Positions 32,037 to 34,718 of a DNA stretch of 44,124 nt are shown here, piece by piece; the first letter of the stretch is position 1, and the number at the start of each line of letters is the position of its first letter. Source of the stretch: Ferruginibacter sp. (GTDB lineage Bacteria; Bacteroidota; Bacteroidia; Chitinophagales; Chitinophagaceae); assembly GCA_025352625.1 (NCBI GenBank), contig JANXSR010000417.1, forward strand, positions 1-44,124, written 5' to 3'. The notes beneath the pieces are model-generated. The model had not been told where the DNA came from. It made no database searches and saw only the letters and a program-made list of their open reading frames with translations. The position numbers and the translations under genes were made by a program.

Positions 32037-33104
32037 ATGTCGCTACTTTTTCAACCACTTACTATAAGAAATGTGCAGTTAAAAAACAGGATCGTTGTTT
32101 CACCCATGTGCCAGTACTCGGCCACTGATGGCTTTGCTACAGACTGGCACCTGGTGCACCTCGGCAGCCGTGCTGTTGGCGGTGCAGCACTTATTATTAT
32201 GGAAGCAACGGCAGTTTCTCCTGAAGGAAGAATTTCTCCCGGCGATCTTGGCATTTGGAAAAAAGAGCACATCGATTTTCTTAAACGGATAACTGCTTTT
32301 ATTGAAACACAGGGTGCTGTACCTGCAATACAACTGGCGCATGCAGGGCGTAAGGCCAGCCATCATGTGCCATGGAAAGGTAATAAAGCGTTAACGCCTG
32401 AAGAAGGTGCCTGGCAAACAGTCGCCCCGTCTGCTATTCCTCATACCGATGGAGAGCCGTTGCCCAAAGCAATGACCATAGAAGATATTGAAAAATTGAA
32501 AAACGATTTTTCTGCTGCCACTGAACGGGCACTAAAAGCTGGTTTTAAACTGATTGAAATACATGCGGCGCATGGCTATTTACTTAATGAATTTATGTCG
32601 CCCGTCAGCAATCAGCGCAGGGATGAATATGGAGGCAGTTTTGAAAACCGAATTCGTTTATTGACTGAAATTGTAACCAACACCAGAAACATCATTGGCG
32701 AAACTGTACCATTGTTTGTTCGCATCTCTTCTACCGATTGGGTAGCTGAAGGCTGGAATGAAGAAGACTCTGTGGTGCTGGCCCGCATTTTAAAAGATAA
32801 AGGTGTCGACTTAATTGATTGTTCTTCGGGAGGAAATTCATCGGAACAAAAAATTCCTTTGGCCCCAATGTACCAGGTACAATTTGCAGAAAAAATAAAA
32901 AAAGAAACGGGTATTTTAACAGGTGCAGTGGGGCTTATTACCAGTGTAACAGAAGCCGAACAAATATTAAATAACCAGCAGGCTGACGTAATTATACTAG
33001 CCCGCCAGTTATTACGGGATCCTTATTTTCCATTACATGCCGCCAAAGAATTGGATGATGATATTATTTGGCCGGTGCAATATGACAGAGCAAAACGGTA
33101 TTGA
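32037..33104 (+). CDS. namA: NADH:flavin oxidoreductase / Old Yellow Enzyme family (NamA/YqjM-like)
   Basis: RIVVSPMCQYSATDGFATDWHLVHLGSRAVGG, IQLAHAGRKAS, HAAHGYLLNEFMSPVSNQRRDEYGGSFENR motifs. Confidence 0.92.
   Translation: MSLLFQPLTIRNVQLKNRIVVSPMCQYSATDGFATDWHLVHLGSRAVGGAALIIMEATAVSPEGRISPGDLGIWKKEHIDFLKRITAFIETQGAVPAIQLAHAGRKASHHVPWKGNKALTPEEGAWQTVAPSAIPHTDGEPLPKAMTIEDIEKLKNDFSAATERALKAGFKLIEIHAAHGYLLNEFMSPVSNQRRDEYGGSFENRIRLLTEIVTNTRNIIGETVPLFVRISSTDWVAEGWNEEDSVVLARILKDKGVDLIDCSSGGNSSEQKIPLAPMYQVQFAEKIKKETGILTGAVGLITSVTEAEQILNNQQADVIILARQLLRDPYFPLHAAKELDDDIIWPVQYDRAKRY
32913..33100 (+). repeat. Left copy of ~188-bp direct duplication (3' end of the OYE gene)
   Basis: Aligned by eye without gaps to 34513-34700 (offset 1600): 13 mismatches in 188 bp (~93% identity). 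Confidence 0.95.
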
Positions 33105-33227
33105 TTTATTTTGCAGTGTTGGTAATGTTTCGGGACGAGACAGCTGTTGTACATTCGCCCTTCTGTAAGCTGTATCAAACTGCATACATTGTCCAATGAA
33201 GCAGGGTGTATTCCAGAAGCGTAGGAA

Positions 33228-33298
33228 CAAGGCAGGCTCATTTGCAAGGTTAGCTTTTGTGTGTCGGCTTTGTGTGCGTTGCAAATGTGCCTGCCTTG
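33228..33298. repeat. Long inverted repeat / hairpin, 20-bp arms
   Basis: CAAGGCAGGCTCATTTGCAA (33228-33247) vs TTGCAAATGTGCCTGCCTTG (33279-33298): 19/20 pairs, 31-nt loop. Confidence 0.9.
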
Positions 33299-33342: not shown

Positions 33343-34410
33343 TTACTCGCTGTCAATTATTTCTTTTACTTTGTTTTCCAACACTTTTTTGTCAGGCAAA
33401 TACAGTTGATATTTTGAAACAAAAATTTTATTGGCAAGTCCGCCTGTGGCATATTTTACAGTATATTCATGCTTGTCTGCCGCAATGATAATCCCTATTG
33501 GTTCATTGTCTCCCTCTGTATTTTCTTCTTCTTTAAAATAGTTTAAATAAAGGTTCATCTGTCCAATGTCTTGATGTTTCACTTTTCTTATTTTGAGGTC
33601 TATGAGAACAAAGCATTTAAGTATGCGGTGATAAAAAACAAGGTCAATATAATTGTGTTCATTGTCAACCGTAATTTTAAATTGTCTTGCTACAAATGAA
33701 AAGCCTTTCCCAAGTTCCAATAAAAAACTTTGCAGGTTATCAACAAGCTTTTTTTCAAACCCTCTTTCTTTTAAAATTTTATCTTTTGGCAATTCAAGAA
33801 ACTCAAAAACGTAGGGGTCTTTAATAGCGTCTTTAGCAACAATTAATTCGTGTCCTTTGTCTGCTAAAGCCAATACTCCCTTTTTATCTTTGCTTAAAGC
33901 TAAGCGTTGAAACAAAGCAGAATTAATTTGTCGTTTCATTTCTCTGAAACTCCAATTCTCTTTGATTGTTTGCCTTTCGTAGAAAGCCCTTGCCAAGTCG
34001 TCTGAAACGGTCAATAATTCAGCATAATGGCTCCAACTTAGCAATATGCCAGACAGTGTCTGGCTTTTTGCAGATTTGCCAGACGGTGTCTGGCGAATCT
34101 CCGATTTTCCAAACACCGTCTGGAAATTTGGGTATTTGATATAGAAAAGCCGCATCAGTTGCAGATTAGAACGGCTGAATCCTTTGCCAAATTTTGTTTT
34201 TAAATCTTTGGATAAAGAAACCAATAATTCTGACCCGTATTCTGCCCGTTCTTTCCCTTGCTGTTCAAATTCAACAATGTATCTGCCAATTTCCCAATTA
34301 GCTTTCACTAATTCAGTGTTGATTGCTTTGATAGCATTTTCTCTTGCCTTTTGAAGGGTAGAACCAATGTTATCAAGTAACTGGTTGTATTTATTTTTAC
34401 TAAGATTCAT
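33343..34410 (-). CDS. DUF1016 / YhcG-type PD-(D/E)XK nuclease domain protein
   Basis: N-terminal [34 protein letters not shown]-terminal nuclease-like [49 protein letters not shown]. Confidence 0.92.
34036..34125 (-). repeat. Three tandem 10-codon units carrying palindromes, in-frame within the nuclease gene
   Basis: Palindromes at 34048-34064, 34078-34094 and 34106-34126, centres 34056/34086/34116 (exactly 30 bp apart); encode [10 protein letters not shown] / [10 protein letters not shown] / [10 protein letters not shown]. Confidence 0.93.
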
Positions 34411-34488: not shown

Positions 34489-34512
34489 TTGCAAATGTGC
34501 CTGACTTGGTGC
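34489..34512 (+). repeat. 24-bp direct repeat, right copy, abutting the duplicated OYE fragment
   Basis: ttgcaaatgtgcctgacttggtgc; next base (34513) is the first base of OYE homology. Confidence 0.92.
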
Positions 34513-34701
34513 ATTTTAACAGGTGCAGTAGGGCTTATTACCAGCGTAACGGAAGCCGAACAAATATTAAATAACCAGCAGGCTGACGTAATTATACTGG
34601 CCCGCCAATTATTACGGGACCCTTATTTTCCATTACATGCCGCCAACGAATTGGGGGATGATATTGTTTGGCCAGTGCAATATGACAGAGCAAAAAGATA
34701 A
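34513..34701 (+). pseudogene. Truncated duplicate of the OYE gene 3' end (right copy)
   Basis: Encodes [62 protein letters not shown], matching the C-terminus of the 32037-33104 gene. Confidence 0.93.
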
Positions 34702-34718
34702 TATTTTAATTATGCAAT

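Follow-up and report, generated by a model that had tools for sequence, protein, structure and literature searches.

Binding sites that lie within the gene of their own binding protein are known, as are helix-turn-helix domains that read palindromes. In Bacillus subtilis, a parS site is found inside spo0J, the parB gene of that species. The DUF1016/YhcG genes described here resemble the ParB/Noc systems in that a helical helix-turn-helix domain (here predicted) would read a palindrome, a few residues on recognition helices would set the specificity, and the cognate site can lie in the protein's own gene; the best PDB matches of the modeled N-terminal domain are likewise ParB and Noc. Unlike ParB and Noc, the DUF1016 protein has, by Pfam, no ParB CTPase/N-terminal CTP-binding domain and carries an attached PD-(D/E)XK nuclease domain, its site keeps to one fixed codon position in different phyla and varies together with the protein, and the fold match is weak. 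REP/BIME palindromes are associated with RAYT transposases, and here too a nuclease gene has palindromic units within it and nearby, some of them arrayed, but Pfam identifies no HUH (Y1) domain and we saw no genome-wide dispersal.

The homing endonuclease I-TevI represses its own gene and also cuts, with related sites (PMC3943268). As with homing endonucleases, a sequence-specific nuclease (here predicted) is tied to its own gene, the distribution is patchy, and empty alleles hold a matching site (gltD-nanQ in CFT073 and DP033). Unlike in homing systems, the cognate-type palindrome stays intact inside the occupied gene instead of being interrupted. Rickettsia palindromic elements are described, in an article citing Ogata et al., as selfish elements of 100-150 nt found over many genes (cited in PMC4316617). 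They share with the present palindromes that they are tolerated in frame in coding sequence, whereas ours measure 17-29 nt and are nearly confined to DUF1016 genes, their flanks and their remnants, with a few solo copies on viral contigs. Unlike a structured RNA element, finally, our palindromes do not favor G-U over A-C on the transcript strand. As known kinds, ParB/parS, homing endonucleases, Rickettsia palindromic elements, REP/RAYT, and structured RNAs each miss defining features of their own here.

To our knowledge, DUF1016/YhcG has no established function. A 2005 analysis placed YhcG, as a predicted nuclease, near the Holliday-junction resolvases (PMC1189080), and yhcG deletion has been reported to be synthetic lethal with alleles of dnaB, dnaN, and parE (PMC2672614). 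Our text search of non-subscription literature for DUF1016 or YhcG together with palindromes returned nothing on this feature.

An in-frame palindromic array inside a DUF1016/YhcG gene

The window, by which we mean the whole 44,124-nucleotide stretch of Ferruginibacter sp. DNA that was analyzed, carries a DUF1016/YhcG nuclease gene with a three-unit array (Table 1). An earlier note, made from the letters alone, had described three in-frame palindromes with an exact 30-bp period in this gene, and our analysis confirms it: the palindromes are centered at 34056, 34086, and 34116, an exact 30-bp spacing in frame. Twenty of the 21 arm pairs in the array are Watson-Crick pairs, a level not reached once when the peptide was recoded synonymously 100,000 times. 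Across the whole 4.9-Mb genome, CCAGACRSYGTCTGG (at most one mismatch) occurs only at the three array sites, and the reversed control pattern gives one match per strand.

Table 1. Coordinates of the DUF1016/YhcG gene, its palindromes and its predicted domains in the window.
Feature	Position	Strand	Remarks
DUF1016/YhcG nuclease gene, 355 aa	33343..34410	-	PF17761 E 2e-43, PF06250 E 3.3e-57
Array, three 30-nt (10-codon) units	34044..34133	-	copies at 34044-34073, 34074-34103, 34104-34133; one unit in most close relatives, two in Pedobacter
Palindrome unit 1, 5'-most in gene, TTTCCAAACACCGTCTGGAAA	34106..34126	.	single internal mismatch, G-T on the coding strand; encodes FQTVFGK
Palindrome unit 2, GCCAGACGGTGTCTGGC	34078..34094	.	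encodes RQTPSGK
Palindrome unit 3, GCCAGACAGTGTCTGGC	34048..34064	.	encodes SQTLSGI
DUF1016_N domain, all-helical, predicted DNA-binding, weakly ParB/Noc-like fold	33904..34368	-	
Helix 80-92 (predicted), first recognition helix	34135..34173	-	residue 81 (codon 34168-34170) tracks offset 7
Helix 126-132 (predicted)	34015..34035	-	residue 127 (S/T) tracks offset 3, residue 130 offset 4
Helix 155-163 (predicted), second recognition helix	33922..33948	-	residue 155 tracks offset 3, residue 156 weakly offset 2
PD-(D/E)XK nuclease domain	33373..33831	-	conserved D256, D/E271, K273

Two further DUF1016 genes lie in the same genome, both with in-frame stops (G000:C252:7378-8289 and C455:14678-15352). 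The C252 copy retains a perfect palindrome of a different sequence, TTGTCGTGCCACTGGCACGACAA.

The palindrome is a property of the family

We sampled PF17761 matches from Bacteroidota, the phylum of Endozoicomonas, cyanobacteria, archaea, plasmids, phages, and E. coli K-12, and took as representatives 102 DUF1016/YhcG genes of less than 70% identity. A palindrome is present at the homologous place and in the same codon register in 97 of these, with one to four per gene, and synonymous shuffles are exceeded at p ≤ 0.05 in 91. The best palindrome is centered on codon position 1 in 98 representatives (116 of 121 when palindromes are counted), and in 77 genes no other segment of the gene scores as high. 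Held-out linkers carried a palindrome in 59 of 64 cases. A typical palindrome opens with AATT and 7-8 variable bases, continues with CANTG and 7-8 bases complementary to the first set, and closes with AATT. If only the protein were constrained, homologs would be expected to keep the peptide and lose the palindrome; the reverse is seen, with encoded peptides that diverge (QTVSG, DALRH, QPLVA, VPLAR, and QQAVG) and self-complementarity that is kept. In 78 matched pairs of relatives, 102 arm changes were fully compensated versus 69 that were single-sided.

Copy number varies as well. Among 80 relatives, the same linker mostly holds one unit, with two in Pedobacter and three in the window gene and one other. 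Variation also occurs among strains within E. coli, where K-12 yhcG has three units and O157:H7 has one, after an in-frame loss of 78 bp. These counts bear out the earlier note's view that the palindromic element is expandable and lies in a coding region. Its statement that E. coli YhcG has only a short linker was wrong, since K-12 yhcG contains three such palindromes. A variable linker, another role it had offered, would be a by-product only: the palindrome-coded residues 101-120 form a low-confidence, probably disordered loop between the predicted helices. The palindrome is constrained beyond the peptide: nearly all members have it, its place and register are fixed, changes in its arms are compensated, and its copy number varies.

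The genes themselves are common and patchily distributed, being present in 113 of 297 sampled Bacteroidota genomes, in 49 of 299 genomes of the Endozoicomonas phylum, and in most E. coli, with up to 13 matches per genome. Scattered copies of the REP or Rickettsia-element type were absent from the window's own genome, six further genomes, and 396 Bacteroidota genomes.

Arm bases covary with residues on predicted helices

We scanned all protein columns outside the linker for covariation with the base at each arm offset. When genes were compared in identity-matched pairs, the top-ranking of the 281 columns was residue 127 for offset 3 (p 1e-13), residue 130 for offset 4 (p 1e-6), residue 81 for offset 7 (p 1e-14), and residue 84 for offset 8 (p 2e-9). 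All of these best-tracking columns lie on predicted helices; residues 81, 84, 127, 130, and 155 fall on helices 80-92, 126-132, and 155-163. Arginine at position 81 accompanies G at offset 7 in 31 of 33 genes, and lysine, glutamine, and serine mostly accompany C or T.

Seven residue-base rules, fixed beforehand, were then tested on 60 unseen loci plus nine that had been fetched for another purpose; scoring used 33 genes with less than 70% identity to any training gene and ranked 312 columns. Three of the seven rules ranked first of 312. Residue 81 predicted offset 7 correctly in 24/33 genes (0.73) versus a baseline of 7 (0.21), residue 130 predicted offset 4 in 28/33 (0.85) versus 6 (0.18), and residue 155 predicted offset 3 in 28/31 (0.90) versus 11 (0.35). 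Residue 84 for offset 8 (rank 5) and residue 127 for offset 3 (rank 7) did less well. Residue 84 failed for offset 9 and residue 156 ranked 37th for offset 2; both rules were dropped as unconvincing after this test.

We also counted phylogenetically independent switches, using a 252-gene tree from which residues 75-165 had been left out. R81 and G(-7) switched together in 23 of 26 pairs and were opposed in none (p 2.4e-7). The corresponding counts were 16:0 of 23 for S127 with A(-3) (p 3e-5) and 7:0 of 9 for E84 with C(-8) (p 0.016), and those for V155 and W84 were nonsignificant. Within E. coli, the first palindrome reads CGC-CAGACA in K81/R84 alleles and GTG-CAGACA in R81/W84 alleles, the change that the code predicts.

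Some observations count against the palindromes as cognate sites. Residue 127 lies near the peptide that the palindrome encodes, and a protein-protein contact could therefore account for part of its covariation; the noncoding copies beside the gene of L030, a Thr127 protein, retain A:T at offset 3. In addition, units of the same gene differ at offsets 7-9 (0.62, 0.53, and 0.62) much as unrelated genes do (0.62, 0.55, and 0.71), so that the units cannot all be equally cognate. At offsets 3-5, units of one array are more alike than unrelated genes are, and each unit stays self-complementary.

A predicted DNA-binding domain joined to a probable nuclease

On the window protein, Pfam identifies only PF17761, PF06250, and a weak NucS_C match. 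The N-domain model has a pLDDT of 83, and ParB and Noc proteins account for all of its 12 best PDB matches, each weak (E 0.14-1.5, below usual significance). The full-length model is poor (pLDDT 66, with a weak NucS-like PDB match), and a search by sequence found no solved relative. Active-site residues E219, D256, D271, and K273 are all present in the window protein; among 88 full-length representatives, D256 is conserved in 86, D/E271 in 86, and K273 in 85. Because the catalytic residues are conserved, the DUF1016/YhcG protein is probably an active nuclease, which would have either to avoid its own site or to make use of it. The protein also matches the PADLOC PDC-S02 models (E 3e-136), but PDC-S02 is only a candidate defense family and says nothing about a palindrome.

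The palindromes as predicted cognate sites of the encoded protein

The covariation across the family suggests that each nuclease recognizes a site in its own gene. We put the probability that the palindromes are cognate DNA-binding sites of the protein from the same gene at roughly 0.7. Self-recognition was among the functions that had been offered for the array, and the matched pairs, the held-out genes, and the tree all support it. DUF1016_N, probably as a homodimer, would read the palindrome in its own gene: helix 80-92 would contact arm offset 7 via residue 81, helix 126-132 offsets 3 and 4 via residues 127 and 130, and helix 155-163 offset 3 via residue 155.

Given binding, we tentatively prefer autogenous control of the nuclease gene: a dimer bound within the gene, in some cases also near the start codon or past the stop, would limit production of a dangerous nuclease, much as I-TevI represses its own gene. 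Next comes self-cleavage for spread or rearrangement of the gene in a homing-like manner, to which we give somewhat lower odds, and other uses, such as ParB-like loading, take up the rest. Autogenous control and homing-like self-cleavage both fit the data. A broader proposal, which we think has appreciably less than an even chance, is that DUF1016/YhcG proteins are self-addressed nucleases: each would read and act on its own in-frame palindrome, protein and site would coevolve by compensated changes, and self-targeting would drive persistence, array expansion, and spread.

If true, one reading frame would lock together a protein and its own recognition site, which bears on how bacteria control a sequence-specific nuclease, and there would be a large group of palindrome-specific proteins that bind or cut DNA with predictable specificities. 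As the residue-base code can be read from sequence, self-addressed reading would make thousands of palindrome specificities predictable. With an in-gene target and this code, laboratory E. coli would allow a direct test of function, and the site of any member could be predicted. K-12 has three copies within a known gene, so that data already available suffice for a new look at the feature.

Empty sites, rearrangements, and possible homing-like self-targeting

The strongest rival, though in our estimate an unlikely one, is homing-like self-targeting, in which the nuclease would cut the palindrome, repair would spread or rearrange the gene, and the palindromes would be active or spent targets. 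In E. coli strains without yhcG (CFT073 and DP033), gltD adjoins nanQ with one perfect palindrome, AAATTCGCCAGACAGTGTCTGGCGAATTT, between them, and a search found this configuration in about a fifth of complete E. coli genomes. The solo palindrome consists of CGCCAGACAGTGTCTGGCG with AATT ends; its 27 central bases are those of in-gene palindrome 1 of the K81/R84 allele, and occupied strains carry yhcG at that site. All intact E. coli alleles examined have an extra noncoding palindrome 18 nt past the yhcG stop, and its arms, changed in these occupied strains, vary by strain yet remain complementary (CTG...CAG or CTC...GAG). The solo palindrome may be either a target or a scar.

Rearrangements that end at palindromes also fit homing-like self-targeting. 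Besides the 78-bp loss in O157:H7, yhcG in O104:H4 and STS63-2-E ends exactly after palindrome 3 and is followed by foreign DNA. In Bacteroidota genome G702, a 1013-aa open frame (L299:1620-4661, minus strand) directly upstream of an intact DUF1016 gene contains about 37 units of 78 nt/26 aa (ILQTVSVESGSGVNSRLVSMNRGDCP), with a palindrome in each unit. The patchy distribution, the multiple matches per genome, and the conserved catalytic residues point the same way. However, a homing gene normally destroys its own target, and here intact sites remain inside the gene; moreover, the solo site could be what a simple deletion left behind, and its role may be no more than that of a terminator.

Other E. 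coli alleles are disrupted as well. O111 yhcG has an 80-bp loss with a frameshift. Together with O104:H4 and STS63-2-E, F5656C1 makes up the three copies broken at palindrome 3 (L238, L239, and L240), with an IS1 at the start of that palindrome in F5656C1. K-12 yhcG (L219:3828-4955) has PRSTY where the other E. coli alleles that were read have PWSTY, together with an imperfect first palindrome, so the copy in this laboratory strain may not be fully functional.

A small number of solo palindromes of this form lie in viral contigs that have no DUF1016 gene. A viral search with two other arm classes found none for one class and two copies of one DUF1016 gene for the other. On one viral contig (L265:3206-3232), a perfect 27-nt palindrome ends an unrelated ATPase-like open reading frame in frame (KRIFQTLSGKLEGAC). 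At L264, two copies of a DUF1016 remnant with palindromes (4739 and 6061) are separated by 1.3 kb, and the two-gene unit between them resembles a toxin-antitoxin pair.

DNA hairpins, mRNA hairpins, and the encoded peptide as less likely explanations

Another possibility, to which we assign a rather low probability, is that a DNA hairpin or cruciform is what is recognized, or that the arms owe their symmetry to hairpin-templated (quasipalindrome) mutation and need little selection. The array units leave room for either, because they differ at offsets 7-9 and these variable triplets nonetheless stay self-complementary (in E. coli, CGC, TGG, CTG, CTC, and GTG). The excess of fully compensated over single changes and the placement of YhcG near Holliday-junction resolvases mentioned above are further points in favor. 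A purely mutational process would leave unexplained the fixed site across phyla, the conserved core, the AATT ends, and the covariation with residues 81, 130, and 155. The residue-base covariation makes recognition of the duplex likelier than recognition of a hairpin, and the hairpin explanation can coexist with a cognate site read by the encoded protein.

Hairpins in the mRNA, acting in translation control or as an RNA substrate cut by the nuclease, are still less probable. They would fit the palindromes that lie near start codons (L054, L078, L081, and L108) or after stops (E. coli and L030, the latter with copies on both sides of the gene); in some genes a second copy lies within the coding sequence, either 183 nt downstream or 108 nt upstream. 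The arm pairs of the 102 representatives comprise 1157 Watson-Crick, 17 G-T, 23 A-C, and 40 other pairs, and the single-sided changes in the 78 matched pairs of relatives led to G-T in 18 cases, A-C in 28, and others in 23. G-T mismatches are thus no commoner than A-C (binomial p 0.43 for 17 v 23 and 0.18 for 18 v 28, the numbers being small), which argues for a constraint on the DNA and not the mRNA. The arm bases also covary with protein residues outside the palindrome, and an Rfam search matched no family. Of the earlier note's interpretation, the expandable element and self-recognition are supported, RNA hairpins and translation control are not, and the short E. coli linker is an error.

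A need for the peptide, with the palindrome a by-product or due to chance, could appeal to a register that pairs second codon bases with wobble bases, the cheapest way to encode a palindrome, and to residue 127 covarying with a base that also sets residue -1, but it is refuted on present data by the failure of synonymous shuffles to reproduce the palindromes, the same architecture with different peptides, the noncoding palindromes beside genes, and the predicted disorder of the palindrome-coded loop.

Flanks of the gene in the window

The DUF1016 gene of the window sits between two copies of the 3' end of a flavin-oxidoreductase-like gene (32037-33104); the copies, at 32913-33115 and 34513-34716, are 91% identical, as if a 1.6-kb unit had been inserted and had brought a new 3' end with it. 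A 70-nt stem-loop repeat, TTGCAAATGTGCCTGCCTTGG, also flanks the gene (33228-33298 and 34489-34515). Further copies of this repeat, a possible cassette recombination site, lie at C478 and C344 of the same genome and immediately downstream of the DUF1016 genes in L003, L004, L005, and L033.
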